Origin: Lewinella sp. LCG006 | GTDB taxonomy: Bacteria; Bacteroidota; Bacteroidia; Chitinophagales; Saprospiraceae | Length of the DNA stretch: 64,000 nt | Assembly (NCBI RefSeq): GCF_040784935.1 | Contig: NZ_CP160680.1 | Coordinates: 3,628,501-3,692,500, forward strand | Direction of reading: 5' to 3' | Shown here: piece by piece, positions 11,928 to 29,007 of the stretch | Layout of the letters: each line of letters starts with the position of its first letter | How positions within the stretch are numbered: position 1 is the first letter of the stretch | Notes under the pieces: generated by a model | What the model was told of the DNA's origin: nothing | Database searches by the model: none | What the model saw: only the letters and a program-made list of their open reading frames with translations | Translations under genes and position numbers: made by a program

Positions 11928-12377
11928 ATGACCGTAATCACTAGAGCTTTGAAAGGGGAGTTGGCCAAGTCGACCATAGAAGTCGAACAGACTTTTGCAG
12001 AAGTCGTGCTTGGCCGCCCCACCGCTAAATGCAAACATTTAGGAATTTGTAAAATAGAGAATGCCCAGGCAAATAACTTTCTGGATTACACACTAGGAAG
12101 TGCTTCTAATAAGCTATATGCGTTAGCGAGTTTCCGGGCAGGCGATTACTTTGAATTATCCTTTTCCCGCGACTCGGTGAGAGAAGCCATCTACGACAAA
12201 CATTTCGCTAGCGGTTATTTCATTATGGAGGAGAGCTACCGTACGGAAGCCAGCTTCATGCACCAGCAGTTTGTCCTCGAAAAAGGAAAGTATAAAGTAA
12301 AAATGACGGACACAGAACTGGTAGTGAGGTTTGCCTTGGCAGAACCGATCGATCAGTTGAAAAACTACCGGGTATGA
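11928..12377 (+). CDS. conserved-looking hypothetical protein with CKHLGIC motif, first gene of peptide locus
   Basis: 149 residues, family not recognised. It has no signal peptide or membrane helix. A compact cysteine pair in AKCKHLGICKIE (about residues 35-46) could bind a metal or form a disulfide. The rest looks like a mixed alpha/beta fold with many aromatic residues (FRAGDYFELSFSRDS, HQQFVLEKGKYKV). Its stop overlaps the ATG of the AraC-type regulator by four bases (ATGA), so the two are coupled and probably act together; a ligand- or signal-related partner of the regulator is a guess only. Confidence 0.75.
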   Translation: MTVITRALKGELAKSTIEVEQTFAEVVLGRPTAKCKHLGICKIENAQANNFLDYTLGSASNKLYALASFRAGDYFELSFSRDSVREAIYDKHFASGYFIMEESYRTEASFMHQQFVLEKGKYKVKMTDTELVVRFALAEPIDQLKNYRV

Positions 12378-13054
12378 TGACAACAGCAACAACAACGGCT
12401 ATCAATTGGGAGTCGGAGGCTGTCCTCTCCCAGATCGCCGATCAGATACACAAGCCGTTGGCCGAAATCATTCGTTTGACGCGTTACATACAAACCAAGC
12501 AAGAAGATACAGAAACGAGTCGGCTTTCGGCAATCATGCTGGAAAGCAGCGAGCAATTGGAGTCGCTGGTAGAAGCGATTCTACAAGCAGAACGGCAAAA
12601 GCAAATTCAGATCGTGGTGCACCACAAATTTCGGTACCCAAAACTCTATTGTTTCGATACCGAAGCGGTACAACGCCCTCAAGATTCATTGGACAACCCG
12701 GAGAGCTATTCAGAAAACCGTATTTCGAAAGCGGACTTGGAATGGCTGATGCAGTTGGAGCGCACAGTGGCTGATCACCTGGATGACGCCATGCTCTGTG
12801 TACCCTGGCTAGCGGACGAACTAGCCGTGAGTGAGCGGCAGCTATTCCGCAAAGTAGAAAAGTACACGGGACTGACGCCGAATAAGTACGTGCGGAAACT
12901 AAAACTACACCACGCGAAAGCCCTGCTGGAAAGCTACACCTATAGCACAATAAGTGAGGTAGCAGGGGCGGTAGGTATGAAAGATCCTCATTATTTCTCG
13001 AAGTTATTCAAAGAGGAGTTTGGGATCAAACCGATGGAATATTTCCATGCTTAG
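12374..13054 (+). CDS. AraC family transcriptional regulator of the peptide locus
   Basis: 226 residues. The C-terminal part (about 130-226) is a complete AraC double helix-turn-helix: WLADELAVSERQLFRKV for the first helix pair and ISEVAGAVGMKDPHYFSKLF followed by KEEFGIKPMEYF for the second. The N-terminal part (about 10-75) is helical (IADQIHKPLAEIIRLTRYI) and resembles the dimerisation helix of histidine kinases, as in the tails of Bacteroidota hybrid sensors, but no phospho-acceptor or ATPase domain is present. Overlaps the previous gene by four bases; the oxygenase gene follows after 22 bases. It is the obvious candidate to act on the shared promoter boxes at the precursor genes, which is inference. 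Confidence 0.88.
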   Translation: MMTTATTTAINWESEAVLSQIADQIHKPLAEIIRLTRYIQTKQEDTETSRLSAIMLESSEQLESLVEAILQAERQKQIQIVVHHKFRYPKLYCFDTEAVQRPQDSLDNPESYSENRISKADLEWLMQLERTVADHLDDAMLCVPWLADELAVSERQLFRKVEKYTGLTPNKYVRKLKLHHAKALLESYTYSTISEVAGAVGMKDPHYFSKLFKEEFGIKPMEYFHA

Positions 13055-13076: not shown

Positions 13077-14294
13077 ATGCAAAAAACAGCCACTACTTCC
13101 CATACTGCTAATAAGGGAATGGAATTTGAAGACCTTATTTCACCCATTGGTATTGATAAATTCGTCGAGCGCTACTGGGAGCAGGAGTCACTTATTTTGC
13201 ATCGGCATGAGCACAGTTATTACCAAGATATCTTATCGATGGATGTGCTGGATAATATCTTAGACTTACCGGTAGTTGAGAAAGACCGCTTTAGGGTCGT
13301 TAAGCATCAAAAACTCGTTGATCAGGAGAAGTATCTGAATAAAGATGGCAGTGTCAATCTGAACAAGCTCTATATGCTCTATGCGGATGGCTTTTCTGTG
13401 AGCCTGAGAAGAATAGACTTGCATTGGTCGCCTATCAAGCAATTGTGCTTTAATCTTCGGCAGACGATAAATCATGAAGTAAAGGCGAATATGTACCTTA
13501 CCCCGAAACATTCTGCTGCCTTCAACCCTCATATTGATGCCCATGATGTGATCATTTTACAAATTGCAGGCTCTAAGAACTGGAAGCTTTACGACACGAT
13601 CATCGAAACTCCGCTGGTAGATAGTCCCACTCCTTCTCTGCCTCCCGCGGCACTGCGCAATGTGAGAGAAGTTACGCTAAATGCGGGAGATTTTATGTAT
13701 TTGCCCCGGGGAGTACCTCATGAAGCTTATACTACGAACAATTCTTCTTTACATCTGACTATCGGAGTATTCCCACTACAGTGGATGGATTTACTGATAA
13801 AAGCGATAAACCTACAAAGTCACAGAGACGTCAATTTGCGCAAAGCACTTCCGCTCGGTTATTTAAACAATGCGGATGGGGTAGAGGAAATGAATGATAG
13901 ACTTCAAAATATTTTGGATCAAACTTTGAAGAGTATCCAGGGAATGAATTTCCGGTATTTTCACGAGAGCTACCGCAATGAATTCATGAACAAACTAGCT
14001 CCACTTGGCAATGGCCATTTCTCTCAACTGGACAAATTAGAGCTGCTTTCTTTATCTACCGTTTTGCGGAAGAGAAGTGGGATGGTATGTTCTGTGCAAG
14101 TGCTGGGGTCGGCATGCAGAATACTTTACAACAGAAACGTGATCAAAGGCCCTGCAACTCTTGCGCCTGCAATGCAGTTTGTGGCAGATATCAAGCACAG
14201 TTTTCGGGTAAGTGATCTTCCTGTCGGAAACGATAAGCACAAGTTAGCAATTGCTGCGAAAATGATTCGTGGAGGACTTTTGGAAACGGCTTGA
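13077..14294 (+). CDS. JmjC/cupin-type Fe(II)/2-oxoglutarate-dependent oxygenase, candidate peptide hydroxylase
   Basis: 405 residues of the cupin_4/JmjC (YcfD/RoxA, MINA53-like) family. The opening ISPIGIDKFVERYWEQESLIL matches the typical N-terminal helix before the cupin. The iron triad is complete: His152 and Asp154 in FNPHIDAHDVIILQIAG and His215 in YLPRGVPHEAY. The strand NMYLTPKHSAAF before the HxD is also as in YcfD. The C-terminal 150 residues are a helical winged-helix-like region, as in the ribosomal oxygenases. Known relatives hydroxylate Arg or His of ribosomal proteins. Here it lies 239 bases before four precursor peptides and is the only recognisable tailoring enzyme of the locus, so peptide hydroxylation is inferred. 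Confidence 0.88.
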   Translation: MQKTATTSHTANKGMEFEDLISPIGIDKFVERYWEQESLILHRHEHSYYQDILSMDVLDNILDLPVVEKDRFRVVKHQKLVDQEKYLNKDGSVNLNKLYMLYADGFSVSLRRIDLHWSPIKQLCFNLRQTINHEVKANMYLTPKHSAAFNPHIDAHDVIILQIAGSKNWKLYDTIIETPLVDSPTPSLPPAALRNVREVTLNAGDFMYLPRGVPHEAYTTNNSSLHLTIGVFPLQWMDLLIKAINLQSHRDVNLRKALPLGYLNNADGVEEMNDRLQNILDQTLKSIQGMNFRYFHESYRNEFMNKLAPLGNGHFSQLDKLELLSLSTVLRKRSGMVCSVQVLGSACRILYNRNVIKGPATLAPAMQFVADIKHSFRVSDLPVGNDKHKLAIAAKMIRGGLLETA

Positions 14295-14299
14295 TTTTT

Positions 14300-14533: not shown

Positions 14534-14869
14534 ATGGATTTTAAAAATTCACAAGAAGGGTACGGTCGTATCCTTAAGGAAGCATGGGGAAATGCTGACT
14601 TTAAGCAACGTCTGGTTGCTAATCCGGTAGCCACTATCGAAGCGTTTACTGGTAAGGAGTTTAACCTGCCAGAGGGAAAAACGTTGGTCGTTAGAGATCA
14701 AACTGATGAGTCTACCGTTTACATCAATATTCCACCCGACACGAGTGAAATGGAACTCACTGATGAGCAATTGGAACTGGTTGCCGGTGGTGATTCTGAA
14801 GACAATGGCCTTAATCCTTTCAAGTGGATCGGCTACGGAATCCACTGGGTAGTAGATCAATTCGACTAA
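14534..14869 (+). CDS. NHLP-leader peptide precursor 1
   Basis: 111 residues. Leader 1-86 is of the nitrile-hydratase-like (NHLP, proteusin-type) class: helical start, NPVATIEAFTG, LPEGKTLVVRDQTD, YINIPP, and the exit motif ELTDEQLELVAGG. Cleavage after Gly86 would free a 25-residue core, DSEDNGLNPFKWIGYGIHWV followed by VDQFD, rich in Trp, Gly and acidic residues and without Cys, so lanthionine chemistry is excluded. The four precursors share leaders and differ in cores. Own promoter directly upstream; precursor 2 follows 48 bases later without a new box, so both are probably on one transcript. The enzyme nitrile hydratase itself is excluded because its metal-binding Cys cluster is missing. 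Confidence 0.9.
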   Translation: MDFKNSQEGYGRILKEAWGNADFKQRLVANPVATIEAFTGKEFNLPEGKTLVVRDQTDESTVYINIPPDTSEMELTDEQLELVAGGDSEDNGLNPFKWIGYGIHWVVDQFD

Positions 14870-14917: not shown

Positions 14918-15283
14918 ATGGAATTAAATAAATTTGGGACCGCACAATATTTAATGCAGGATCTCATCACAAGATCACACCAAAGCGAGGAATTCAAAAA
15001 AGAATTAATCAGCAATCCTGAAACTACCATCGAGAAGGTAGTAGGAGCAGAAATGAGAATTCCTGCAGGTTCAAGAATCATCGTAGAAGATCAATCGAAT
15101 ACTGACGTTCTCTACCTCAATATTCCCCGCCAAGTAGAACTTGATGAAGTAGAACTGACCGATGAGCAGCTGGAGCTAGTAGCTGGCGGCGATTTTGGTC
15201 TTACAATGACTATTATCGGAGGCGTAGTAGCCATCTGCCAAGCCGTGGATTGGATTGTAGAAGGCTACAACAATTATCCATAA
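14918..15283 (+). CDS. NHLP-leader peptide precursor 2
   Basis: 121 residues. Leader 1-91 has the family pattern NPETTIEKVVG, IPAGSRIIVEDQSN, LYLNIP and VELTDEQLELVAGG. The predicted core after Gly91 is 30 residues: DFGLTMTIIGGVVAICQAVD then WIVEGYNNYP. It is strongly hydrophobic in the middle and ends in an aromatic, Asn-rich tail, so a membrane-active product is conceivable. A DW pair followed by a hydrophobic residue is shared with precursor 4 (AIDWKG). One Cys only. Likely co-transcribed with precursor 1; two stem-loops follow. Confidence 0.9.
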   Translation: MELNKFGTAQYLMQDLITRSHQSEEFKKELISNPETTIEKVVGAEMRIPAGSRIIVEDQSNTDVLYLNIPRQVELDEVELTDEQLELVAGGDFGLTMTIIGGVVAICQAVDWIVEGYNNYP

Positions 15284-15411: not shown

Positions 15412-15594
15412 ATGAACCGAAAAGTATACTTAATTGTGGGAGTAATAACACTTTTAGTTTTTTTAACTTTCTTAGTTGAAGCTATCAGAAATGGGATACA
15501 GCAAGGAAATCAAGTTACCACTAAAGAGATTATTTACTTGATTGGTTGGGGACTATTGGCAAGCGCAAGTTTATACAAGTACTATACTAGCTAG
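15412..15594 (+). CDS. small two-helix membrane protein in the peptide locus
   Basis: 60 residues with two hydrophobic helices (VYLIVGVITLLVFLTFLVEA, about 5-24, and IIYLIGWGLLASASLYKYY, about 40-58) joined by a polar loop. No family recognised. It follows precursor 2 on the same strand by 128 bases and is inside the precursor array. Small membrane proteins next to bacteriocin-like precursors often give self-protection; that is a possibility only. It could also be a chance frame, but the helix-loop-helix pattern and coding-strand placement argue for a gene. Confidence 0.6.
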   Translation: MNRKVYLIVGVITLLVFLTFLVEAIRNGIQQGNQVTTKEIIYLIGWGLLASASLYKYYTS

Positions 15595-15982: not shown

Positions 15983-16363
15983 ATGAATTCTAATTCACAA
16001 AAAAGCGTATCCGAAAAGGTAGTTTACGAAGCATTGAATAATCCTGATTTCAAAGCGGCTTTGATCGAGAACCCAATGGAAGCAATTAAGTCACTTACTG
16101 GTCAGTACATACACTTGCCGGAAGGTAAGGAACGTCTGGTCGTTGTAGATCAAACCGACCCTAAGGCCTTCTATTTCAACCTTCCTTCACACGTGAACAC
16201 GGATGATGTGGAACTGACCGAAGACCAGCTGGAGGCTGTTGCAGGTGGTATGGACATCATTCCCATCTTTATCCCTACCCTTCCTCCCTGTTTCCCTTTC
16301 CCATTCCCTGATGGTGGTACCGGACCTTACAATCCCTACCCAGATGACAGCATTCTAGGCTAA
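15983..16363 (+). CDS. NHLP-leader peptide precursor 3
   Basis: 126 residues from ATG 15983; an open frame extends upstream to 15809 but would cross the promoter. Leader 1-89: NPMEAIKSLTG, LPEGKERLVVVDQTD, FYFNLP, VELTEDQLEAVAGG. The 37-residue core after Gly89 is unlike the others: proline- and phenylalanine-rich (IIPIFIPTLPPCFPFPFPDG, then a Gly/Tyr/Asn/Pro/Asp tail), with one Cys and about one third Pro. Such a core could not be helical. The proline density makes prolyl or other side-chain hydroxylation by the neighbouring oxygenase worth considering, but no direct evidence exists. Confidence 0.9.
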   Translation: MNSNSQKSVSEKVVYEALNNPDFKAALIENPMEAIKSLTGQYIHLPEGKERLVVVDQTDPKAFYFNLPSHVNTDDVELTEDQLEAVAGGMDIIPIFIPTLPPCFPFPFPDGGTGPYNPYPDDSILG

Positions 16364-16787: not shown

Positions 16788-17141
16788 ATGCATTTAGATA
16801 GCGTACAAGAAACCCTCCACCGGGTTATTGCTGAAGCCTGGGCGAACCCTGTTTTCAAACAACAGCTCATCGACGATCCGGTAGCAGCAATCAAAGCACT
16901 CACTGGCCGGGAGGTTCAGTTGCCGCCTGGTAAAACCCTGAGTGTGTTCGATCAGAGCGACAACAATATGATTTGCCTCAATATTCCACCTCCACCTGGG
17001 GTAAATGATAAAGAACTCACCGAACACCAGCTGGAAATCGTAGCTGGTGGAGGTATCTTTTTAACAGGCCTGGCCATTGACTGGAAAGGGATTTTTACCA
17101 ACAACCTCGTTTCCTATCCAGCCCAACATTACAAAAATTAA
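16788..17141 (+). CDS. NHLP-leader peptide precursor 4
   Basis: 117 residues. Leader 1-88: DPVAAIKALTG, LPPGKTLSVFDQSD, LNIPPPPG, KELTEHQLEIVAGG; a third Gly follows at 89, so cleavage could be after Gly88 or Gly89. Core of about 29 residues: GIFLTGLAIDWKGIFTNNLV then SYPAQHYKN, without Cys. The aromatic tail resembles that of precursor 2. The gene is 28 bases ahead of the cyclic-nucleotide-binding-like gene, so its promoter may also drive the export genes downstream. Confidence 0.9.
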   Translation: MHLDSVQETLHRVIAEAWANPVFKQQLIDDPVAAIKALTGREVQLPPGKTLSVFDQSDNNMICLNIPPPPGVNDKELTEHQLEIVAGGGIFLTGLAIDWKGIFTNNLVSYPAQHYKN

Positions 17142-17169: not shown

Positions 17170-17694
17170 ATGAAAAGAGTATTATTCGTACTGGGCCATC
17201 TCAGTGATTCTGACATCGAATGGATGATCGAGAATGGCACTAAGAACAATTATTACGAAGGCCAGCACCTCGTAACCCAAGGAGAATCCATTGAACATAT
17301 CCACATCGTACTGTCAGGTCACTTGCGAATATTCAGTGAAGATCGCCCCGAGTTAGATATTGCCCAAATCGGTTCTGGTGAGATCATCGGCGAGATGTCA
17401 TTCCTCGACGAGCGTCCACCTTCCGTATCTGTCGTAGCCATCGAAGACTGTAGCGTTTACAGTATTTCTCTCGAACGCATGAAACAATATATGGAAGTGA
17501 ATACCCGCTTTGCGGCTCGCTTCTACTACTCTATCAGCCTATTTCTGTCGGATCGCCTGCGGAAGACCACCAGCCGCCTCGGCTACGGTTCAGTTGAAGA
17601 CGATATCGATGAAATCAATCTGAACGTCCTGAACCAGGTGGGTAAAGCTGGTTCCCGTTTTACTCGTATGCTCAACCGCTTTGCCGAAAGCTAA
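17170..17694 (+). CDS. cyclic nucleotide-binding domain protein, no DNA-binding domain
   Basis: 174 residues. Residues about 25-120 form a CRP-type beta-roll: YEGQHLVTQGES, HIHIVLSGHLRIF, GSGEIIGEMSFLDERPPSVSV. In the phosphate-binding cassette Gly74-Glu75 are present but the position of the conserved Arg is Pro84, so ordinary cAMP binding is doubtful. No helix-turn-helix follows; the C-terminus is helical. Single-domain proteins of this type accompany NHLM export genes, and the 969-residue ABC protein here begins with a similar roll. It lies 28 bases after precursor 4 and 12 bases before the TolC gene. Role probably in export or its control, by context. Confidence 0.85.
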   Translation: MKRVLFVLGHLSDSDIEWMIENGTKNNYYEGQHLVTQGESIEHIHIVLSGHLRIFSEDRPELDIAQIGSGEIIGEMSFLDERPPSVSVVAIEDCSVYSISLERMKQYMEVNTRFAARFYYSISLFLSDRLRKTTSRLGYGSVEDDIDEINLNVLNQVGKAGSRFTRMLNRFAES

Positions 17695-17706: not shown

Positions 17707-19272
17707 ATGTGGACTAAATATATACTCTTCCTGGGCATTTTCTGTCTGGGGAACAGCTACACAATAGCCCAGAATGAGGCCGTCACCTGCGATCTGCTCC
17801 ATCTCTATCAGCTCACTTTGGCAAACAGTCCCACTGTACAAAGGCAGGAGATTCGGAACCAAATCGTGAAAACCGGAAAACAAACCGCTCGTAGTCAGTT
17901 TGATTACCAGTTGGTATCAGATGTATCACTGAGCAGGTCGAGCTACAATTTTTATGAAGCTGATCCCCTCCGGGCACTGATTGGCAACACGATGAATACA
18001 AACAATTTTTCCCTTTCTACTGGTGTCCAGCGTACTTTCCGTACGGGTACCACAGCCAATGTAGGATTGCAATACCAACGTGTTTCCGATAGTAACCCCA
18101 TCAATGGCTTCAGTGAAACAATCGGTGCTTTCATTCCTGACAATACTACTACTACTAGCCTTTCAATCACGCAGCCCTTGTTAAGGGGCCGGGGTCGGGA
18201 TATTGTGACGGCCAACGAAGAAGTCGCCGAACTTAATTTGGCTCAACAGCAGCAGAATGCTCATTTCGTGATTTCCGGCCAAGTACTGACCACGGTTAAT
18301 GCCTACTGGCAATATTTCAGTGCAACCGAGTCACTGAAAATCTACCAAGACAATGAAGAACGGGTAATGGCGGTACTAGACATGACTAAAGAACTGGTGA
18401 ATGCCGATAAAAAACCCGCCGGTGACCTTACGCAAATTCAAGCTGACGTGCTCGATAAAGAACGGCAAACGATCCTGGCAGCGCAGAATGTATATTCCGC
18501 TCAGCAAAACCTGGGACGCAGTATCGGGCTGGAAACCAGCGAAAGCCAAGAGATCGGTTTGCCATTGAGTAATTTTCCGCGCTTAGACGAAGGACAGGAA
18601 GTTCCTTCCTTGGAAAGTTTGCTTACCCTGGCACGTGCCCACCGTGCCGATCTCAAAGCCCTGGAGAAATCACTAGAAGTCCAGCAACTTCAGGTACGTG
18701 TAGCGGAAAATAATATTAAGCAACAGCTCAACCTCCGTGCTTTCTCCAGCTATGGCGGTGCGGCCATGGGCAATGGTGTTGATCGCTTTCTTACTGCTCT
18801 GGGCAACTATGAAGGCCGGAATTATCAGATAGGAGTAGGCATGGAATACATCTTCCCTATCAATAACAACCAGGCGGAGGCTGCTTTGCTGAACGCTCAG
18901 CTCACTTATGCTGATCAGGAAACCTACCAGAAGGATCAGATTCGAAATATTGAACTCAATGTCAGTATTGCCTACAATAATTACCTCAATAGCATCGACG
19001 CTTTGAAAAAGTCGAGTGAATCCCTGGCTTATTATGAGGAGGTTTTTACCAACGAGCAATATAAATTTCAGAATGGACTAACTACCCTGCTGAATCTGAT
19101 TCTGTTGCAAGAGCGGCTCACGTTTGCCCAACTAGATTATATCAAAAGCCAGCAACAATACGCAATGGCAATCAGTAATCTACGCTACGAGACGGGTACA
19201 CTTTATCCCTCTGATGCTCCGGTGGGCTTTGATGAAGAGGTCTTCTATACGCTACCGGGAACAAAATATTAA
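17707..19272 (+). CDS. TolC family outer-membrane efflux protein
   Basis: 521 residues: signal peptide (YILFLGIFCLGNSYTIAQ), then the two-fold TolC pattern of long amphipathic helices and strand pairs. Typical features are SITQPLLRGRGRDIV, LNLAQQQQNAHFVIS, LARAHRADLKALEKSLE and, in the second half, VSIAYNNYLNSIDALKKS plus FTNEQYKFQNGLTTLLNLI. It should form the trimeric outer-membrane channel for the HlyD/ABC exporter encoded next. The gene is in a tight array: 12 bases after the previous gene and 28 before the HlyD gene. Confidence 0.92.
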   Translation: MWTKYILFLGIFCLGNSYTIAQNEAVTCDLLHLYQLTLANSPTVQRQEIRNQIVKTGKQTARSQFDYQLVSDVSLSRSSYNFYEADPLRALIGNTMNTNNFSLSTGVQRTFRTGTTANVGLQYQRVSDSNPINGFSETIGAFIPDNTTTTSLSITQPLLRGRGRDIVTANEEVAELNLAQQQQNAHFVISGQVLTTVNAYWQYFSATESLKIYQDNEERVMAVLDMTKELVNADKKPAGDLTQIQADVLDKERQTILAAQNVYSAQQNLGRSIGLETSESQEIGLPLSNFPRLDEGQEVPSLESLLTLARAHRADLKALEKSLEVQQLQVRVAENNIKQQLNLRAFSSYGGAAMGNGVDRFLTALGNYEGRNYQIGVGMEYIFPINNNQAEAALLNAQLTYADQETYQKDQIRNIELNVSIAYNNYLNSIDALKKSSESLAYYEEVFTNEQYKFQNGLTTLLNLILLQERLTFAQLDYIKSQQQYAMAISNLRYETGTLYPSDAPVGFDEEVFYTLPGTKY

Positions 19273-19300: not shown

Positions 19301-20569
19301 ATGGCTGCTCCCAGCTTTTTCCGAAAATCTGCCCTGGAAAAACTCTCCACACCCGAGAAGTTGGACCAATTGATCAAAGTGACCAGCCCACGGGCATGGA
19401 TCGCCCTGCTCACCATCGTCATCGCGCTAGTGACGGCACTTAGTTGGGGTTTTATGGGGCGGGTAAAAACTAAAATCAATACTGCCGGCATCCTGCTTGG
19501 TGGGGAAGTATACGATGTCGTATCCACCACGCAAGGTCAACTGCTTGAGTTGGACATTGAAGTCGGCGAACAAGTTGCTAAAGGCGACATCATCGCTACC
19601 ATCGACCAACCTGAACTGCTCCAGCAAGTCCAGGCTGCGGAAGCTTCCTTGGTGGAGCGCCGCTATGAATTAGAGCAGCTACAAGTCTATGGTTCCAAAG
19701 ATGCTCAAATCCAGGGCGATCTGCTGGAACAAAGCCGGCGCAGCATACAGCAACAGATTCGTACCACAGAGAAGAACATCGTTTTCTTGAAACAACAACT
19801 CGCCACTGAACGCGAACTGCTGGAGAAAGGCCTTATTACCAAACCACAGGTCGTGGGTAGCGAGCAGGCGGTAGAAAACGCCCAGAACCAGATCGAAGGC
19901 CTTAAGGCCCAGTTGGTGCAAATGACTTCGCAAGCCCTGAATGCAGGGTTCAATCAACAGCAGCAACTTACAGTCGTACAACAGCGTATCGCACAGGAAG
20001 AGCTACGGCTGGAACAACTTCGCGAACAGTACGAAACCAAATCGGCGATCCGCAGCCCCCACGATGGGGAGGTCGTAGAGGTGCTCTCCACCAGCGGCGA
20101 AATGGTGGGCTTGGGAACACCCCTCTTCAAACTTAAAAACGACTTAGCCATCGCTGAAAATGGCAACATCCGGGGTATTCTCTATGTGCCCTCGCAAGAC
20201 GGCAAAAAGATCAAGGTAGGCATGGAAGCCCTCGTTGTACCCGCTACGGTGAAGCCACAGGAACACGGCTATATGAAGGCGAAAGTGACTTACGTATCTG
20301 CCTTCCCCGTCACACAGCAAGGGATGATGACTTCCATGAAAAATGATCAGTTGGTTAACAATATGCTGCGTATGGGAGCTCCCTACGAGGTGTACGTAGA
20401 GTTCGAGAAAAATCCTCAAGCTTATAGTGGCTATGAATGGACTTCGGCCAAGGGCCCCGAGATCACCATCAATGCAGGCACCTCTTGTAGCGGAAAGATC
20501 ACCGTCAAGCAGGAGCCACCCATTGCCATGGTCGTACCGGCATTGAAGAAGTTTTTCGACCTGTATTAA
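19301..20569 (+). CDS. HlyD-type periplasmic adaptor (NHLM bacteriocin system secretion protein)
   Basis: 422 residues. One membrane helix near the N-terminus (about 30-48, WIALLTIVIALVTALSWGF), a lipoyl half motif (VSTTQGQLLELDIEVGEQVAKGDIIATI), a long coiled-coil hairpin rich in Gln and Glu (about 105-235), the second lipoyl half (SAIRSPHDGEVVEVLSTSGEMVGLG) and a beta-barrel end. It links the inner-membrane ABC proteins to TolC. The N-terminal FFRKSALEKLSTPEKLDQLI opening before the helix is characteristic of the NHLM subtype. 27 bases separate it from the C39 ABC gene. Confidence 0.92.
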   Translation: MAAPSFFRKSALEKLSTPEKLDQLIKVTSPRAWIALLTIVIALVTALSWGFMGRVKTKINTAGILLGGEVYDVVSTTQGQLLELDIEVGEQVAKGDIIATIDQPELLQQVQAAEASLVERRYELEQLQVYGSKDAQIQGDLLEQSRRSIQQQIRTTEKNIVFLKQQLATERELLEKGLITKPQVVGSEQAVENAQNQIEGLKAQLVQMTSQALNAGFNQQQQLTVVQQRIAQEELRLEQLREQYETKSAIRSPHDGEVVEVLSTSGEMVGLGTPLFKLKNDLAIAENGNIRGILYVPSQDGKKIKVGMEALVVPATVKPQEHGYMKAKVTYVSAFPVTQQGMMTSMKNDQLVNNMLRMGAPYEVYVEFEKNPQAYSGYEWTSAKGPEITINAGTSCSGKITVKQEPPIAMVVPALKKFFDLY

Positions 20570-20596: not shown

Positions 20597-22798
20597 ATGT
20601 TTACAGCAATCGCAAAATTGCAAAAGGAGAAGGCTCAGCCCATTGTAGCCACCCGGGTAAAAACGCCTACTGTCCTCCAAATGGAAGCCGTAGAGTGCGG
20701 AGCAGCTGCGCTTGCCATTATCCTGGGCTACTTCGGGCGCAATGTACCACTGGAGAAGCTTAGGGTAGCCTGTGGTGTATCTCGAGACGGCCTCAAGGCG
20801 ACCAACCTCATGAAGGGGGCTCGTACTTATGACCTACACGCTAAGGGGTACGCTAAATCTATTGATAAATTGAAGATGATGAAGATGCCAGTCATCATTT
20901 TCTGGAACTTCAATCACTTTCTGGTGTTGGAGGGATTCACCAAAGATCGCGTCTATCTCAGCGATCCGGCTCAGGGGCGTTATCACGTCACTCATCAGGA
21001 ATTCGACGACTCTTTCACCGGTGTGGTGATCGACTTGCAGCCTAATGAAAATTTCGTAAAAGGCAACGAAAAAAAAGGCCTGTTTTCGGCCCTCTCTTCG
21101 CGAATTTCCAACTCGAGGCTGAGCCTGGTTTTTATCATTCTCACCAGTCTTTTTCTTGTAATTCCAGGGTTGATCATTCCTTCTTTTACTAAAATTTTCA
21201 TCGATCAATTCCTGATAAATAACCGCGCCAGCTTTGTGATGCCCTTGTTGTTGGCTATGGGAGGTGTGTTTGTGATCAATGCCGCGTTGGTGTTTATTCA
21301 ACAGTATTATCTGCTCCGATTGGAAACCAAACTGGCGTTGGCCACATCCAGCAAGTTCCTCTGGCATATCTTGCATCTGCCCAGTGCCTTCTTCACCCAA
21401 CGGAGTGCAGGAGAGATAGGTAACCGCGTTGCCCTCAACGATAAAATAGCCCGGTTGCTTAGCGGTGACTTGGCCAACGCAGCTCTCAACGTGATTGTGG
21501 TGTTATTTTATGCTATGCTGATGTTTAGTTACGATGTCTTGCTTACTTCTATTGGGATCATCGTAGCAGCCCTCAACGTCATTGCCTTGCAACTGGTTTC
21601 ACGGGCTCGTAAAGACAGTAATCGACGACTGGTTACCGAAAACGGTAAGCTCATGGGCACCACTGTCTCGGGTATCAGCATGATCGAAACGCTGAAGGCC
21701 AGTGGCCGCGAAAGCGATTTCTTTACCACTTGGGCAGGACATTTGGCTAAAGTGATGAACGTTCAGCAAAATCTCGGCTGGCTATCGCTACGCCTAAACG
21801 TCATTCCTCCTTTTCTTTTAGCGCTCAATACAACTATCGTTATGGGGGTAGGAGCCTTGCGCGTAATGGATGGCGATATGACACTGGGCATGCTCGTAGC
21901 TTTCCTGTACCTAATGAACAACTTCATCCGTCCGGTTAATCAACTTGTTGCCGTAGGGAGCACTTTGCAGGAAACGGAAGGAGATATGAACTGCATTGAT
22001 GACGTGCTCAACTACGAAGTCTCCGAAGAATTTAGCCGCCCTTCTGCCCAGCTTCCAGAGGGACAAGAAATGCACAAGCTGACGGGTTCCCTCGAACTCA
22101 AAAATATTAAGTTTGGTTATACCCACGCTCTGCCCTGCCTGATCGAGGATTTTAGTATTAAGCTAGAACCGGGCAGCCGAGTAGCACTCGTGGGTGGATC
22201 AGGCAGCGGAAAGTCAACCGTAGCTCGCTTGGTGGCTGGTCTTTATGATCCTTGGGAGGGTGAAATCCTGTTCGACGGAAAACCTCGTAATGAATTACCT
22301 AGGCAGATGCTCAACGCATCAATGGCAGTCATCGACCAGGATGTGATGATGTTCCATGGTACCATCCGCGAGAATATCGCTTTCTGGGATGATACTATCC
22401 CCGAGCACGATATCGTACAGGCAGCCAAGGATGCCATGATCCATGAAGTGATCGCTGCCCGAGCCGGTGGCTACGACAGCATCGTTGCTGAGAAAGGAAC
22501 CAACTTCAGCGGTGGTCAACGCCAACGGATGGAGATCGCCCGCTCACTAGTCCTTAATCCTTCCATTCTGGTGATGGATGAAGCGACCAGCGCCCTTGAT
22601 CCGAAATCCGAAAAAATTATAATGGACAATGTACGCAAGCGCGGCTGTACTTGCCTTATCGTAGCGCATCGCCTAAGTACTATCCGGGATTGTGATGAGA
22701 TCATCGTCATGAAGTTCGGAAAAATTGCAGAACGCGGCACCCACGAAGAACTTGTTGCCAAGCAAGGACTTTATGCCGAATTAATCAGCTCCAAATAA
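20597..22798 (+). CDS. NHLM-type peptidase-containing ABC exporter (C39)
   Basis: 733 residues in three parts. The N-terminal C39 peptidase has Cys34 in VLQMEAVECGAAALA, His107 in WNFNHFLVLEGF and Asp123 in LSDPAQGR, a complete catalytic set for cutting after the GG of the leaders. A membrane domain with about six helices spans roughly 165-440. The ATPase has Walker A (VGGSGSGKST, about 531-540), signature NFSGGQRQR (about 637) and Walker B (ILVMDEATSALD, about 656). It should remove the leader and export the core peptide. The dimer partner may be itself or the next gene's product, eight bases downstream. Confidence 0.95.
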   Translation: MFTAIAKLQKEKAQPIVATRVKTPTVLQMEAVECGAAALAIILGYFGRNVPLEKLRVACGVSRDGLKATNLMKGARTYDLHAKGYAKSIDKLKMMKMPVIIFWNFNHFLVLEGFTKDRVYLSDPAQGRYHVTHQEFDDSFTGVVIDLQPNENFVKGNEKKGLFSALSSRISNSRLSLVFIILTSLFLVIPGLIIPSFTKIFIDQFLINNRASFVMPLLLAMGGVFVINAALVFIQQYYLLRLETKLALATSSKFLWHILHLPSAFFTQRSAGEIGNRVALNDKIARLLSGDLANAALNVIVVLFYAMLMFSYDVLLTSIGIIVAALNVIALQLVSRARKDSNRRLVTENGKLMGTTVSGISMIETLKASGRESDFFTTWAGHLAKVMNVQQNLGWLSLRLNVIPPFLLALNTTIVMGVGALRVMDGDMTLGMLVAFLYLMNNFIRPVNQLVAVGSTLQETEGDMNCIDDVLNYEVSEEFSRPSAQLPEGQEMHKLTGSLELKNIKFGYTHALPCLIEDFSIKLEPGSRVALVGGSGSGKSTVARLVAGLYDPWEGEILFDGKPRNELPRQMLNASMAVIDQDVMMFHGTIRENIAFWDDTIPEHDIVQAAKDAMIHEVIAARAGGYDSIVAEKGTNFSGGQRQRMEIARSLVLNPSILVMDEATSALDPKSEKIIMDNVRKRGCTCLIVAHRLSTIRDCDEIIVMKFGKIAERGTHEELVAKQGLYAELISSK

Positions 22799-22806: not shown

Positions 22807-25716
22807 ATGAAAATGAGACCTACAGAAGTACATTTAGGAGCTAGCAAGCCCTTCTTCCTTGCCAAGAACGACCACTGCTGGATGGTAGCTTCCGGCGAAG
22901 TCGAAATCTACTACGTCAAAACCGACGAAGCTGGTCAGCTGAAAAGTGCTCGCAACTATCTGTACACCGCTACTAGAGGAGATTTGCTTTTTTCACTGAA
23001 AACCGGTGCTGAATTCGATGACTTTTCCCTCATCGCCGTAAGTTCTGCCAGTAAGCTGATCGAAATCCACAAGTCGATTCTTGGCAGGGTAAACAAAGAC
23101 CAACTCAGTCCGAAAATCGCCAACTGGGTAAATGCATACGCTGCTTATATCCATCGGGAAAACAGTCCCAAAATATACCGCGATCTGGTCCGGTTAAACG
23201 AGACAATAGAACTCAAAGACAAGGAAACAGCCTATCCAGCGCGGGAACTCTACTGGGGCAAATTTCTCCAAGGCAAACTGCGTACTTTCGGCGACGAACA
23301 GAGCGAGATCACTGCGGAGGAGGCTGTTCAATTCTTCCTTCCCGTATCAAGCAAACTATGGATACAGGCGCTGGCACCGAAAACAAGTATCTCTTTACTC
23401 GATACCCGTCAACTGGTAGAAGATGAGATTAGTATGATGCTATCCATCCATCACCTACAGCGCTATTTCCTGCGGGAACTCAAATCACACTTCGCCGCCA
23501 AAGTTAATCTGGCTAGCCAGAGGATCGCAACGCGAGTAGCTTCCGACGAAGAAGCTATTGAGGGCAGCCTGTCTGGGCTCAGGTCCATCATATCGAATAA
23601 AGATGAGGCTGCTGCTTTTCATGATATCAGCACTACGAATGAGCTGCTGGCAGCCTGCCAGTTGATTGGTAAAGCCGCCAACTTCGAGTTCATTGAGCCG
23701 GGCTATATCCGCGATTACGAACACAACCTCACTGGGCAACTATCGGCCATCGCGCAGGCTTCCAATGTGCGAACCCGTAAAGTAATTCTGCGCGGTGACT
23801 GGTGGAAAGACGAGAACGGTCATTTGCTGGCTTTTACCCGTGAAGAGAAAACGCCGGTGGCACTGATACAGACCGCACCCGGACAGTATCATATCCAGCA
23901 TACTGGCGACCGAACGAGCCAACCCGTCACCGAAGAAATAGCCCATACGCTCGATCCCTTGGCGTATATGTTCCTCTATTCCTTCTCGGAGAAGATGACT
24001 TCCATAAAAAAGATCGGACGCTTTGCGATCAAGGGGTTGCGAACCGATGCGGTTTATATCATTGCGGCGGCTCTGGCGGGTAGTCTGATCGGTCTACTGA
24101 CCCCAGTGCTATCGGGTATCCTTTTCGATGATGTGATTCCGCAGGCCGACCGTAGCTTCCTCTGGGAAGTATTTGCTATCATGCTGGTTATCGCCGTGGT
24201 CAAGTCGCTGCTAGAGGTCGTAAAGGGTATTCTATTGTTGCGTGTGGAAACGCAGTCAAACATCAGCGTACAAGCAGGCCTAATGGATCACCTGTTGCGC
24301 TTGCCAGTCACGTTCTTTCGGCGCTTTTCGGCAGGTGATCTGACAATGCGGGCCTTAGGGATCAATTCCATCCGCCAGATGTTGTCCAATACCGTACTTA
24401 CTGCTGTGCTAAGTGGTACTTTCTCCATTGTCAACTTGTTTCTGCTTTTTTATTACGATGCCAGCCTGGCCTGGGTAGGCGTAGGACTGGCCGTACTGGC
24501 TGTGGTGATCATCAGTGCATTGGGTTTTGCCAAACTGCGCTACGATCGACAGGTATCGGATCAGCAGGGAAGCATTCAGGGGTCTTTGTTCGAGTTCCTT
24601 TCGGGGATTAACAAGATTAGAATCACAGGTTCCGAGAAGCGGATATTTGCACTGTGGGCCAAAAAATTTGGTAGTTTCAAACAACTGGGCTTCAAATCCG
24701 GCAATTATCAGAATTTTGTGGAGGTCTTCAACGCTTCCTATCCTCTGATGACCAACATCTTTTTCTTCAGCTTCATCTTTGTGGCCCTGAATTCTGCTGA
24801 CAGTGCAAGCGGCTTGATCTCGGTAGGCGTTTTCATGGCTTTTCTGACGGCCTTCAACCAGTTTTTGCGCGACTGTCTGAGTATGAGCATGGGACTCATC
24901 TCTTCGCTCAATATTGTTCCGCTTTACGAACGGCTTAAGCCTATCCTGGAAGAAGAACCCGAGTCGGCCCTGGAAAATGGCGACCCTGGTGAGCTGTCTG
25001 GAGAGATCGAGTTCAACTCGGTGAATTTTCGCTACGACCCTGAACAGCCTCTGGTACTGAAAGACGTCTCTTTCAAGATCAAAGCCGGAGAAATGGTTGC
25101 TTTTGTTGGGCCTTCAGGCTCAGGTAAGTCAACCGTAATGCGCCTGTTGCTGGGTTTCGAGGAAGCTGAATCTGGCTCGGTTTACTACGATGGGCAAGCC
25201 TTTGATACGCTGAGCAAGGAACTAGTACGCCGCCAGCTGGGCGTAGTCCTGCAAAACGGCTCGCTGATGCCGGGAAGTATCTATAAAAATATTGTCGGGA
25301 GTACAGAGCTCACGCTCCAGGATGCAGAAGCCGCCGCTCGCATGGCTGGACTGGAAGAAGATATACAGCAAATGCCGATGGGAATGCATACCGTCATCAG
25401 TGAAGGAGGAAGTACTTTCTCAGGTGGGCAGCGTCAGCGCTTGATGATCGCTCGGGCGATTGTGAACAAGCCCCGCATCATGTATATGGACGAAGCGACG
25501 AGTGCGCTCGATAACCGTACTCAAAGTATCGTTTCCGAAAGCCTGGATCGTTTGCAGGCTACTCGGATTATCATTGCTCACCGCCTTAGTACGATCGTGA
25601 ATGCCGACCGCATCTTTGTGATGGATCAGGGGCAGATTGTAGAAGCAGGTACCTATGATGAATTGATGGAAAAGAACGGGCTGTTCTCTCATCTTGCTAA
25701 ACGCCAAATAGCTTAA
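22807..25716 (+). CDS. NHLM-type ABC transporter with N-terminal regulatory region
   Basis: 969 residues. The first ~420 residues are not peptidase: they start with a beta-roll-like stretch (WMVASGEVEIYYVKTDEAGQ, then TRGDLLFSLKTG) resembling a cyclic-nucleotide/cupin roll, followed by a helical section and a segment with GDWWKDENGHLLAFTRE, as in the second NHLM ABC family. A six-helix membrane domain (about 415-700) and an ATPase follow: Walker A VGPSGSGKST (about 766), signature TFSGGQRQR (about 870), Walker B IMYMDEATSALD (about 890). It is paired with the C39 exporter in NHLM loci. Only four bases separate it from the next gene. Confidence 0.93.
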   Translation: MKMRPTEVHLGASKPFFLAKNDHCWMVASGEVEIYYVKTDEAGQLKSARNYLYTATRGDLLFSLKTGAEFDDFSLIAVSSASKLIEIHKSILGRVNKDQLSPKIANWVNAYAAYIHRENSPKIYRDLVRLNETIELKDKETAYPARELYWGKFLQGKLRTFGDEQSEITAEEAVQFFLPVSSKLWIQALAPKTSISLLDTRQLVEDEISMMLSIHHLQRYFLRELKSHFAAKVNLASQRIATRVASDEEAIEGSLSGLRSIISNKDEAAAFHDISTTNELLAACQLIGKAANFEFIEPGYIRDYEHNLTGQLSAIAQASNVRTRKVILRGDWWKDENGHLLAFTREEKTPVALIQTAPGQYHIQHTGDRTSQPVTEEIAHTLDPLAYMFLYSFSEKMTSIKKIGRFAIKGLRTDAVYIIAAALAGSLIGLLTPVLSGILFDDVIPQADRSFLWEVFAIMLVIAVVKSLLEVVKGILLLRVETQSNISVQAGLMDHLLRLPVTFFRRFSAGDLTMRALGINSIRQMLSNTVLTAVLSGTFSIVNLFLLFYYDASLAWVGVGLAVLAVVIISALGFAKLRYDRQVSDQQGSIQGSLFEFLSGINKIRITGSEKRIFALWAKKFGSFKQLGFKSGNYQNFVEVFNASYPLMTNIFFFSFIFVALNSADSASGLISVGVFMAFLTAFNQFLRDCLSMSMGLISSLNIVPLYERLKPILEEEPESALENGDPGELSGEIEFNSVNFRYDPEQPLVLKDVSFKIKAGEMVAFVGPSGSGKSTVMRLLLGFEEAESGSVYYDGQAFDTLSKELVRRQLGVVLQNGSLMPGSIYKNIVGSTELTLQDAEAAARMAGLEEDIQQMPMGMHTVISEGGSTFSGGQRQRLMIARAIVNKPRIMYMDEATSALDNRTQSIVSESLDRLQATRIIIAHRLSTIVNADRIFVMDQGQIVEAGTYDELMEKNGLFSHLAKRQIA

Positions 25717-25720: not shown

Positions 25721-26836
25721 ATGACGATCATTACCGCTAATAACGACCTATTATCAGCTTACACCAGCAATGAGCTGGTGCACGAAGCGTTGCGAGCTTA
25801 CACTCAAAATGCTTTTAGGGTACCTGGTGGGCGGGTTTGGGCCGGAAAAGCCTTAGCGGATGAGCCTCACATTGCTACCTGGAAGAAATACCTGAAGGAA
25901 GCTGAGGAAGAGGGCGTCTATGCTTGCCTTCGTCGTCATTTGGTACAATTTCAGTTTCCGATACAGGCACAAATCAGCGAAACGATAGCTTATGGACAAG
26001 CTACCCGCCGGGGTGAAAGCACTACATCCATGAAGGAAGCCACTGGCTTAGGATTGGAATGTGCAGAGGGACTGGAGCTGTTTTTATACGAGTCTATCGC
26101 GGGGTGTATCCCGGTGATAGTTACTGCTCATCGGGAGGACTTTAAGTCGATCGTTCAGGCGCTTTGCAATCGTAATGAACCATGTTCATTGCCTGATTCG
26201 ATGGGGGCGGTATTGGTTCGCGGCCTCAATAATTGGGATAGGGTAAGACAGGTAAAGCAAGTCGCCGCTCTGGGGCAGATTGCTGGCGATTGGCGACAAC
26301 AGCGCGAATTGTACCAGGATAGTATTATTGTTCTGAGCCGAATTCCTTACAGCAATGTTCCAGCGGAAGCCCTCGGTTTAAAAGAAGAAGATTGGCTGGA
26401 AAAGTCGCTGCAAATCCGTTTGGCGCACGAGTGTGCACATTACTACACGCTGCGGCAATTCGGCAGCATGAGCGTCAATATGCACGATGAACTGATCGCT
26501 GATTATCTCGGTATTTGTAGTGTCTGCCCCACATTTACCGCTGATTGGTTTTTGCGGTTTATCGGCCTGGAGAATTATCCTGTTTGTCGACCGGACGGAC
26601 GTTTGCACAATTACCTCGGTACGCCTTCTCTTTCCGCGCCAGCCCTTGGAGTATTGCAAACCATTCTCTTTCGGGCCGCCCATCACGTAGCGATCTTTGA
26701 CGAGCAGATCGGAACTCGCCAGGATCCGCAGCGCCTAGCTCGTCTCAACACCCTTTGCCGGCTGAACCTCCTGGAAATGGCCGCCCCTAACGGTGTCGGT
26801 CGATTACTTGACGACTATCATAATTCACAGCACTGA
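25721..26836 (+). CDS. HExxH zincin-like protein of unknown function in the peptide locus
   Basis: 371 residues, cytoplasmic by appearance. The motif LAHECAHYYTLRQFGS gives His236, Glu237 and His240, and Glu257 in MHDELIADYLGI is well placed as third zinc ligand, the gluzincin arrangement. The N-terminal half has no recognised domain (ETIAYGQATRRGESTTSMKE). The gene is tightly packed between the ABC gene (4-base gap) and the cyclase gene (1-base overlap), so it belongs to the system. It could trim precursors or exported peptides, or be a regulatory protease. I believe similar proteins occur in cyanobacterial NHLM loci, but this is from memory. Confidence 0.75.
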   Translation: MTIITANNDLLSAYTSNELVHEALRAYTQNAFRVPGGRVWAGKALADEPHIATWKKYLKEAEEEGVYACLRRHLVQFQFPIQAQISETIAYGQATRRGESTTSMKEATGLGLECAEGLELFLYESIAGCIPVIVTAHREDFKSIVQALCNRNEPCSLPDSMGAVLVRGLNNWDRVRQVKQVAALGQIAGDWRQQRELYQDSIIVLSRIPYSNVPAEALGLKEEDWLEKSLQIRLAHECAHYYTLRQFGSMSVNMHDELIADYLGICSVCPTFTADWFLRFIGLENYPVCRPDGRLHNYLGTPSLSAPALGVLQTILFRAAHHVAIFDEQIGTRQDPQRLARLNTLCRLNLLEMAAPNGVGRLLDDYHNSQH

Positions 26837-29007
26837 TGAGAAAGGAAATACTTCACGAAATCAACGATATTCTGGGCAATATCACCCTCGCACTGCGCGC
26901 GCGCCGGAGTACTGTTTTTTTAGTCAATGAGGAGAGTGGCACCTTGGATAGCCTTATCTCGCAAGGTATACGGAACAATCTGATTTCCATGCCTCTGAAC
27001 TGTGGTATTGCGGGCCATTGTGCCGGAACGGGGAAGGCAATGATCGTGAATGATGTTAGTAAGAGCGAGCATTTTAATAACTATTTTGATACCATCACTG
27101 GATTCAAGACCCAGAAAGTGATTTGCGCCCCTCTTCTGACGGACTCGGGCCGGGTAGTTGGTGTGATCCAGACGCTCAACAAGATTGCCGCCGATTTCGA
27201 CCAGCATGACCTTACGGTGTTGAAAAGCTTTGCTGATGCCATTTCACTGGCCATCAAGAATGCCCAATTGTATGCTTCCGCAGAAACGATCAAGAACAAT
27301 ATCGCGACGCTGCTGAAAGTATCGTCGTCTATCAATTCCGAACTCGACCTGGGCAGTCTGATTCAGCTGATTATCGAGAAAGCCTCAGAAATTACTCAAT
27401 CAGATCGCAGTAGTTTCTTTCTGTTGGATAAAGAAAAGAATGTACTATGGACCAAGTACGGTGAAGGTCTCGACGGACGGATTATCAAAACTCGGCAGGG
27501 GCTGGCTTACCACGTGGCCATGACGCAGCAACCACTGATTGAGAATAATCCCTACGGGAATGTTCATTTCGATAAATCGGTGGATGCGAAGTTTGGTTAC
27601 GTCACCAAATCTATCATCAGTATTCCGGTCTTCAGCTCTTCACGCGAAGTGATTGGGGTGATCCAATCCATTAACAAAAAAGGCGGACTGTTTACCACTA
27701 AAGATCTGTTCGTACTCAATGGTTTTGCGGCGCAGATCAGCATTGCTATTCAGAACTCTACGCTCTTCGAGGAAATCAATAATATCAAAAACTACCTGGA
27801 TGTACTCTTTGAAAACCTCGAGAACGGCATCCTCACCATTGATAAAGCTGGGATCGTAAAGACGGTCAACCGCCGCTTCTGCGATATCCTGGGGATGGAG
27901 TCGACGGATTTGATCGGCAAGTACTATAAAAAGCTGGCACAAGATCACTTTACCTTCTTCGACTATAGTGAATATACCTTCCATTCGGGAGAAAAATTTG
28001 AGAAGTATAACATCGAAAGTCTTGATACCCGCAATAAAAAATTGGTGCTGAATTTCAATGCACTACCAATGAAGAGTAAAGACGGTGAGAATATCGGTGT
28101 CATCAATGTCATCCATGATATAACCTCGGAGGAGCGAGTAAAGACCAACCTCAACCGTTATCTGCCCCAGCATGTCATCAACGAGATCATCAATAAAGAT
28201 GACCTCTCACTCTTCAATGGGGAATACAAAAAGTGCAGTATCCTCTTTAGTGACATCCGTAATTTTACCTCCCTGACCGAGTGCTTGGAAGCCATCGAAG
28301 TCGTCAACTTTTTGAATGATTATTTTGATGTTATGGTTGGCTCTATTTTCGAACACAATGGCGTATTGGACAAGTTGATCGGTGATGCCGTGATGGCTAC
28401 TTTCGGCATTCCTTATAACAGTGATGCTGATGCTGTTAATGCTATTCACACAGGACTGGATATGATCGCTAACCTTAGTAAGGTAGGAGACATCAAACAA
28501 CTCCAATTCCAGTTAGGGATGGGTATTGGTATAGCTACAGGTAACGTGATCGCGGGTAATATCGGCTCCACCAAACGCTTCGAATACACCGTGATCGGCG
28601 ATGCCGTCAACCTGGCCGCCCGGCTGGAAAGCCTTACCAAATTCTACGGCCTTAACATGCTCATCTGTGATAAGACGGCCCAAGATATAGTGGCGTATTA
28701 TCGCTGTCGCGAAATCGATTGTATCAAAGCCAAAGGTAAGCAGGAGCCTGTCACTATCTTTACTGTTGTAGGGCGACAGACAGAGGAGCTATCAAGGGAA
28801 GAGACCCTGTTTCTCGATTTCTACGCCCAGGGTTTAGCGGCTTATCGCGCTCAGCGATTTACGGTTGCGCTAAAGGAGTTTAAAAAGGGACTCCTATTCT
28901 TTCCCGATGATCATCCTTCCCTCATCATGATCGACCGCTGCGAGCAATTTCTTCATCATCCACCCGAGGAAAATTGGAATGGAACCTGGGCTTTTAGTCA
29001 AAAGTAA
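26836..29007 (+). CDS. GAF-GAF-PAS class III adenylate cyclase
   Basis: 723 residues: GAF domain (about 8-145), second GAF (about 165-315), PAS (about 325-435) and a class III cyclase domain (about 460-650). Metal-binding Asp473 (SILFSDIRNFT) and Asp517 (KLIGDAVMATFG) are present, as are Lys513 and Thr585 (YTVIGDAVNLAARLES), the pair typical of bacterial adenylate rather than guanylate cyclases. No membrane helix. It should make cAMP in response to ligands of the GAF/PAS domains. The start overlaps the HExxH gene stop by one base, placing the cyclase in the export operon. A short helical C-terminal tail (about 655-723) resembles a TPR unit (AQGLAAYRAQRFTVALKEFK). Confidence 0.93.
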   Translation: MRKEILHEINDILGNITLALRARRSTVFLVNEESGTLDSLISQGIRNNLISMPLNCGIAGHCAGTGKAMIVNDVSKSEHFNNYFDTITGFKTQKVICAPLLTDSGRVVGVIQTLNKIAADFDQHDLTVLKSFADAISLAIKNAQLYASAETIKNNIATLLKVSSSINSELDLGSLIQLIIEKASEITQSDRSSFFLLDKEKNVLWTKYGEGLDGRIIKTRQGLAYHVAMTQQPLIENNPYGNVHFDKSVDAKFGYVTKSIISIPVFSSSREVIGVIQSINKKGGLFTTKDLFVLNGFAAQISIAIQNSTLFEEINNIKNYLDVLFENLENGILTIDKAGIVKTVNRRFCDILGMESTDLIGKYYKKLAQDHFTFFDYSEYTFHSGEKFEKYNIESLDTRNKKLVLNFNALPMKSKDGENIGVINVIHDITSEERVKTNLNRYLPQHVINEIINKDDLSLFNGEYKKCSILFSDIRNFTSLTECLEAIEVVNFLNDYFDVMVGSIFEHNGVLDKLIGDAVMATFGIPYNSDADAVNAIHTGLDMIANLSKVGDIKQLQFQLGMGIGIATGNVIAGNIGSTKRFEYTVIGDAVNLAARLESLTKFYGLNMLICDKTAQDIVAYYRCREIDCIKAKGKQEPVTIFTVVGRQTEELSREETLFLDFYAQGLAAYRAQRFTVALKEFKKGLLFFPDDHPSLIMIDRCEQFLHHPPEENWNGTWAFSQK

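Follow-up and report, generated by a model that had tools for sequence, protein, structure and literature searches.

Gene content of the locus

A 64,000-nucleotide stretch of the Lewinella sp. LCG006 genome (contig NZ_CP160680.1; hereafter the window) carries, at positions 11928 to 29007, a 17-kb locus for ribosomally made peptides with NHLP leaders, together with an NHLM exporter and one JmjC-type Fe(II)/2-oxoglutarate (2OG) oxygenase. A check of the open reading frames (ORFs) placed all of its genes on the + strand. The oxygenase (13077..14294; PF08007, 87.8 bits) is related to NO66 and MINA and, as described in an initial annotation made from the sequence alone, has a complete HxD...H motif (H152, D154 and H215). 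The four precursors are encoded at 14534..14869 (precursor 1; TIGR03793, 49.4 bits), 14918..15283 (precursor 2; 53.7 bits), 15983..16363 (precursor 3; 48.9 bits when scored from 15980) and 16788..17141 (precursor 4; 47.7 bits). One of the four exceeds the family cut-off of 50.9, and all of the leaders end in VAGG, as previously noted. No other TIGR03793 match was found in the 7.5-Mb single-contig genome, and 14 control genomes gave none. The core of precursor 1 starts with DSEDNG and that of precursor 3 is Pro-rich. The core of precursor 2, the proposed substrate of the oxygenase, is hydrophobic and starts with Asp-Phe-Gly.

The exporter consists of an HlyD-type NHLM adaptor (19301..20569; TIGR03794, 319.6 bits, cut-off 156.2), an NHLM peptidase/permease/ATPase predicted by homology to cleave after Gly-Gly (ABC1, 20597..22798; TIGR03796, 1054.6 bits, cut-off 853.3) and a second NHLM ABC permease/ATPase (ABC2, 22807..25716; TIGR03797, 892.1 bits, cut-off 709.4). 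Leaders that end in Gly-Gly and three exporter proteins above their cut-offs identify an NHLP/NHLM system, in agreement with the initial annotation. The putative TolC-type outer membrane protein (17707..19272) bears the label of that annotation; homologues occupy the equivalent place in ten related loci (37-57% identity) and in two more (23-24%). Downstream of ABC2 lies the protein first noticed for its HExxH motif, which is DUF7005 (25721..26836; PF22541, 420.6 bits), also has a DE..AD motif and is a possible second enzyme.

The last gene codes for the adenylate cyclase of the initial annotation, with a GAF-GAF-PAS-adenylate/guanylate cyclase arrangement (26836..29007; PF00211, 91.2 bits). 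The product of 17170..17694 had been called cyclic-nucleotide-like; its binding domain was found (PF00027, 69.8 bits), but the match to TIGR03896, at 119.6 bits, does not reach the cut-off of 161.05. Related loci again combine such a protein with one or two nucleotide cyclases (TPR-cyclase genes in some arrays), which suggests cyclic-nucleotide control of expression or export. To the first description we add the ATG at 15983 as the start of precursor 3, a 60-aa hydrophobic ORF (15412..15594) that is a candidate immunity protein, and an AraC-type regulator (12374..13054; PF12833/PF00165). In 21 of the 28 loci mapped below, the window among them, an AraC-like gene is adjacent to the genes for precursors or exporter. 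A 149-aa protein with no Pfam match (11928..12377) is assigned to the locus solely because its gene overlaps the AraC gene by 4 bases.

The JmjC protein is the only recognised tailoring enzyme within the locus, as the initial annotation had stated. A genome-wide search covering PF13575 (DUF4135, LanM-type dehydratases), PF04738 (LanB-type dehydratases) and PF02624 (YcaO), with LanC and radical SAM enzymes left out, gave no match to any of the three, although for PF04738 the control genomes were likewise without a match. The LanM-, LanB- or YcaO-type enzyme by which lanthipeptide and thiazole/oxazole systems are recognised was not found in the genome by these searches, and the known enzyme elsewhere in the strain that, according to the initial annotation, would argue against its view was not encountered in these families. 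Ten flanking proteins scanned with Pfam, a set that leaves out other window genes, a 3428-aa ORF among them, included no enzyme for ribosomally synthesized and post-translationally modified peptides (RiPPs). That ORF (39040-49326) is followed by CHU_C and PorP/SprF genes, neighbours of the type IX secretion kind.

The oxygenase and its association with the export system

The nearest relatives of known structure are the ribosomal histidine hydroxylases NO66 (phmmer, 1.7e-26) and MINA53, followed by YxbC and YcfD. An AlphaFold2 model made from a three-sequence alignment had a predicted local distance difference test score (pLDDT) of 65.6, residues 235-320 being poor, and Foldseek returned NO66 first with this model (2.0e-26). 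H152, D154 and H215 are the metal ligands and are invariant in all five NHLP-linked JmjC proteins aligned. These five form a single group with 99/98 support in a tree of 12 rows, built before the G1446 protein was found. As judged from its sequence, the protein belongs among the hydroxylases NO66, MINA, YxbC and YcfD, and is predicted to carry out Fe(II)/2OG-dependent hydroxylation.

The initial annotation had proposed examining whether oxygenase and precursors co-occur. We used a sample of 395 genomes of the phylum that was drawn twice, once for DUF7005 and once for JmjC, and treated as one sample through shared genome handles. DUF7005 was detected in 12 genomes and a JmjC of the window type (E<1e-100) in four, all within those 12. 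When the own genome was omitted, such a JmjC was present in 3/11 DUF7005 genomes and 0/383 others (Fisher p=1.6e-5). At E<1e-20 three more genomes matched: two without DUF7005 (G325 and G317) and one in which the gene lies on a contig apart from the NHLM locus (G333). The homologues of all three fall outside the NHLP-linked group in the 12-row tree. In a set of 60 genomes JmjC matches were found in four, of which one was the own genome and the other three showed 23-25% identity. A search for more JmjC loci gave two in a contig scan and two among 58 genomes from the genus to which G145 belongs, G145 itself being one of them. The NHLM system is itself rare in the family of the window, with TIGR03797 above its cut-off in 3/100 genomes, the own included. 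In the genomes sampled, then, the window-type JmjC group travels with the NHLP/NHLM/DUF7005 system, as sequence matches indicate.

Two of the remote homologues have neighbours of their own. In G325 (L088), the JmjC gene (10084-11271) lies just downstream of a short ORF (9707-9979) ending in DGGADGDGG-type repeats, possibly a multi-core precursor for Asp hydroxylation. The second contig of G333 (L090:9348-13076) is a small separate locus that encodes two tandem JmjC proteins, the first scoring slightly below the Pfam cut-off, as well as a DUF4135 protein and a 93-aa NHLP-leader-like protein that has no Gly-Gly.

An exporter module with exchangeable tailoring genes

We mapped 28 loci, the window included. 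The set is non-random: most loci were found through DUF7005 (searches that detected it in 12/395, 3/397, 9/320 and 10/219 genomes) and some through NHLM ABC2 or JmjC. The set leaves out the loci around remote homologues of JmjC (L068-L070, L072 and L088-L090) and six occurrences of DUF7005 (L056-L061) in five genomes from a different lineage, where the precursor leaders are of other kinds and the contigs partly short. L056-L061 show no JmjC match to the window protein and are counted among the DUF7005 genomes of the 395-genome sample.

The common module comprises an AraC regulator, at least one precursor, the cyclic-nucleotide-binding protein, TolC, HlyD, ABC1, ABC2 and DUF7005, often with a cyclase. 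The tailoring slot holds JmjC in six loci (the window, G395, G145, G1446, G364 and G462a), a stand-alone DUF4135 protein without JmjC in 14 and glycosyltransferase-like genes only in one (G399; the glycosyltransferase label, here and below, is our own reading, and Pfam gave no match for either G399 protein). The array is cut off in three loci (G466, G462c and G954) and decayed in four. Most genomes counted as lacking JmjC were read for it at the locus rather than genome-wide, and the contig of G1004, counted with the DUF4135-only loci, begins inside the array, so that a JmjC gene is still possible there. JmjC is accompanied by a LanB pair on the opposite strand in G145, by a glycosyltransferase-like gene in G1446 and by DUF4135 in G364 and G462a. 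Among the 14 DUF4135 loci (G680 included), two have LanB-like and two have glycosyltransferase-like genes.

Within one genus, the HlyD, ABC1 and ABC2 proteins of G399 and G079 are 92-97% identical and their tailoring genes differ, with two glycosyltransferase-like genes in G399 and DUF4135 plus one glycosyltransferase-like gene in G079. In another genus, the same three proteins of G145 and G1446 are 79-87% identical and the JmjC proteins 53%. Among five loci compared, the exporter of the window is closest to those of G466 and of G462b, which has DUF4135 and no JmjC; G462 belongs to the same family as the window. These sequence comparisons establish a conserved exporter module with an exchangeable tailoring cassette, and swapping of the cassette. 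Because the module is kept while the tailoring slot varies across the 28 loci, the window locus is, as judged by its gene content, a JmjC-carrying variant within an NHLP family that mixes and matches its tailoring enzymes.

The initial annotation had suggested a distinct RiPP-like class with hydroxylation as the main modification, and had named homologous loci without the oxygenase as evidence to the contrary. Such loci exist, and a class defined by JmjC alone was rejected: 14/28 loci have DUF4135 without JmjC, one has glycosyltransferase-like genes only, and 4/6 JmjC loci hold another tailoring gene (DUF4135 in two, a LanB pair in one, a glycosyltransferase-like gene in one), leaving 2/6 with no other recognised one. 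In addition, JmjC hydroxylases of RiPP pathways (BipG, BpmG and PbsQ) have already been reported in the papers available to us.

The mapped loci have further features. The commonest tailoring enzymes are DUF4135 proteins of ~500-650 aa, two of which were scanned with Pfam and had no cyclase domain (examples at L053:15576-17537, L055:14318-16210, L081:4581-6101, L084:5336-6883 and L085:10936-12888). Locus G462a (L055:11313-19562, the same as L071) combines JmjC and DUF4135 with an amine oxidase, the end of which is squalene-cyclase-like, and with a zinc alcohol dehydrogenase. L055 also encodes a 389-aa protein with no Pfam match, relatives of which (25-27% identity) adjoin DUF7005 or ABC2 in another lineage. 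The decayed loci, in G1396, G1412, G1282 and G1218 (L132, L134, L136 and L138), are without exporter genes; their precursor stops shortly past the leader and DUF7005 follows directly.

The first core residue of precursor 2 and the oxygenase

A tree was built from precursor leaders only, using 106 of 117 precursor matches after removal of 11 without Gly-Gly. Precursor 2 of the window falls in a clade of 17 rows with a support of 0.74 (0.87 when one row is removed). In this clade, the first residue after Gly-Gly (+1) is acidic in 9/9 precursors from five JmjC genomes, with six Asp and three Glu, versus 0/8 precursors from six other genomes (p=4.1e-5 by peptide and 0.002 by genome). Because this was the best of 120 position/class tests, the p value after correction is ~0.005. 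On the leader tree, the support of which is weak, the +1 state must have changed four times or more, and it matches the presence of JmjC in 17/17 rows. The contrast also holds inside two genera (G395 versus G399, G079 and G1382; G364 versus G1034 and G911). Locus G1446, discovered after the idea had arisen, has Asp at +1 in 2/2 precursors, both among the nine. G680, which was read last and is absent from the tree, carries DUF4135 without JmjC, and its precursor-2-type core, with a VEDQ leader, starts with Val; the single precursor of G462a, outside the clade, has a core that starts with Glu. For the sequences compared, these data demonstrate a link between the presence of JmjC and an acidic +1 residue in the clade to which the leader of precursor 2 belongs.

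As conserved targets, His, Arg/Orn, Lys and Asn were considered and rejected: Lys occurs in 7/9, Asn in 5/9, His in 1/9 and Arg in 0/9 of the cores. The Pro-rich, GQTVW and PPIIIKP core types are found both with and without JmjC, and therefore do not follow the enzyme. A weaker parallel concerns the hydrophobic cores of loci without JmjC: where Pro is at +3, Thr stands at +2 in 7/8 from DUF4135 loci (G079, G1382, G1034 and G680; counted by eye) and in 0/2 from G399, which has no DUF4135.

The hydrophobic precursors are often paired in tandem in related loci, and a small ORF with two hydrophobic segments lies 3' of them in 6/16 genomes scanned (G145, G364, G395, G1446, G399 and G079). In the same 16 genomes none was seen after other core types. 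G680 also has a small ORF with two transmembrane segments after its hydrophobic precursors; none was found in G1382, G1034 and G462a. The 60-aa ORF of the window is in the equivalent position, its second hydrophobic segment being below the threshold. A bacteriocin with its immunity protein is a simple and possible reading of the hydrophobic core and the neighbouring small ORF, both roles being putative.

A proposed mechanism and its alternatives

We propose, with a probability of about 0.5, that before export the JmjC oxygenase hydroxylates precursor 2 where its hydrophobic, bacteriocin-like core begins. The locus would make several NHLP-leader peptides, which the NHLM exporter, by homology, would export and cut after Gly-Gly. 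As the tailoring cassette of the window, the JmjC Fe(II)/2OG oxygenase would act in the cytoplasm on precursor 2, with its Asp right after Gly-Gly, and the likeliest site would be the first acidic core residue or its neighbour; for Asp, beta-hydroxylation would be expected. The small hydrophobic neighbour would possibly confer immunity. That the first core residue changes in step with the oxygenase points to a specific hydroxylation. The type of enzyme, its link to the system and the choice of substrate rest on sequence, from which we infer hydroxylation, its site and the bacteriocin and immunity roles. It is also conceivable, though we consider it doubtful, that these peptides form a hydroxylated bacteriocin-like family in which the JmjC acts on residue 1 (Asp/Glu) of the mature peptide and exchange of the cassette changes the N-terminal "cap" chemistry: JmjC would go with an acidic +1, a stand-alone LanM-type dehydratase with Thr-Pro at +2/+3, and the absence of both with Leu-Pro.

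Several observations weigh against hydroxylation at the start of precursor 2. Eight genomes first suggested the +1 link, and the definition of the subtype then moved from hydrophobic core to VEDQ leader and on to leader clade; G1446 is the sole new JmjC-positive case, the peptides are non-independent and branch support inside the clade is weak. The acidic residue is a mix of six Asp and three Glu, which one enzyme would perhaps handle differently, and it could serve recognition or cleavage instead. It also occurs in 5/74 precursors from loci without JmjC, and in 4/23 of the out-of-clade precursors of JmjC loci. The nine cores are also rich in Thr (8/9), Tyr (7/9) and Lys (7/9); as these are almost as frequent, another target is possible. 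In G145 the JmjC gene and the genes for the hydrophobic precursors lie at opposite ends of the locus. Finally, the model of the enzyme, with its pLDDT of 65.6, is only fair.

An unlikely alternative, though the best of three, is that JmjC is a promiscuous, leader-guided hydroxylase of all or several precursors, the acidic +1 being a by-product of peptides that move together with the enzyme gene. Several core types are indeed present in JmjC loci. The C-terminal part of the model, strands followed by helices, resembles the winged-helix part of NO66/MINA and, broadly, RiPP recognition element (RRE) domains, and one paper, in the part available, describes RRE-like domains fused to PF08007 JmjC, with bacterial homologues in RiPP-like contexts. 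Against this, the other core types do not follow the enzyme, as said above, and the agreement with JmjC in every row of the clade spans at least four +1 changes. It is less probable still that the oxygenase acts on something other than a peptide, such as a ribosomal protein or a regulator, and that its place in the locus is accidental or regulatory. This would fit its nearest solved relatives, which are named ribosomal-protein hydroxylases, but the JmjC group is confined to such loci in the sampled genomes and co-varies with +1 of the core.

Between these two in likelihood, and rather improbable, is the view that DUF7005 is the main enzyme, a metallo-protease or HExxH hydroxylase that acts on every precursor, with JmjC as an accessory. 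DUF7005 is present whichever tailoring cassette the locus holds, also in 5/5 mapped loci found by other routes (G462a-c, G466 and G1446), its HExxH and DE..AD motifs are invariant in 13/13 aligned sequences, and BipH sets a precedent as a HExxH hydroxylase of a RiPP pathway. However, searches against solved structures returned only VapC43 (E=0.58) and a ciliary protein (E=0.0099), both taken as chance matches, no NCBIfam match of note was obtained, and the predicted model (pLDDT 35.8) is unusable for the fold. Moreover, DUF7005 is constant across core types, so that it is equally likely to serve in export or processing.

Hydroxylation of the precursor 2 core would bear on RiPP chemistry, which JmjC oxygenases are newly entering, with Orn as the only target reported in the papers found, as far as these were available. 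The locus would add a JmjC group of its own, which in Bacteroidota goes with NHLP leader and NHLM exporter and for which substrate and site are predicted. In two genera, natural species pairs have the locus in common and differ in the cassette, so that enzyme-substrate matching and cassette exchange are directly testable.

Comparison with known systems

The window JmjC shares with NO66, MINA, YxbC and YcfD the fold, the HxD...H motif and a comparable length; it differs from the NO66 chains in sequence (21-23% identity in structural alignments) and in being encoded in a peptide-export locus. Class IIb two-peptide bacteriocins resemble the peptides described here in having hydrophobic, Gly-rich cores after Gly-Gly with a small membrane protein alongside; the loci described here differ in having a long NHLP leader, an NHLM exporter and a tailoring enzyme.

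BipG, BpmG and PbsQ are JmjC/cupin hydroxylases that act on Orn in RiPP precursors (PMC12707348 and PMC12257519, as far as available). As in the window, a JmjC or cupin-like hydroxylase goes with a ribosomal precursor, and the enzyme is missing where the target residue is missing: clusters without the Arg target are also without PbsQ. In those systems the Orn lies in an FRF motif and arises after the action of a multinuclear iron oxidase (MNIO) and an arginase, and the available text mentions neither an NHLP leader nor an NHLM exporter. The cores of the present loci share no conserved basic residue, Arg is absent from all nine leader-clade cores of JmjC genomes (the BipG kind being compared by description), and no arginase was found among the locus proteins scanned, which did not include the TolC and 60-aa ORFs. 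In the open-licence literature searched, we found no paper linking JmjC to NHLP precursors or to proteusins; within it, the JmjC and NHLP combination and the +1 rule appear to be new, NHLP systems and the three JmjC RiPP hydroxylases being already known.

The dehydrazole/carnazolamide system of Chryseobacterium (PMC10676384, as far as available) likewise has an NHLP leader and a DUF4135 dehydratase, with a product devoid of lanthionine rings. There, DUF4135 carries a fused cyclase domain and has YcaO as its partner, whereas DUF4135 stands alone in the sister loci studied here and neither was found in the genome of the window. The NHLP/NHLM systems of Haft et al. (2010; PMC2887384) have TIGR03793 leaders, a Gly-Gly cut and hypervariable cores as in the window, and tailoring enzymes mixed with one export system. 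The tailoring enzymes given there, as far as the text was available, are cyclodehydratase and LanM-like, and the words "cupin" and "oxygenase" are absent from the main text, whereas the window has a JmjC protein. The cassette exchange among the 28 loci agrees with the mix-and-match pattern of that description.

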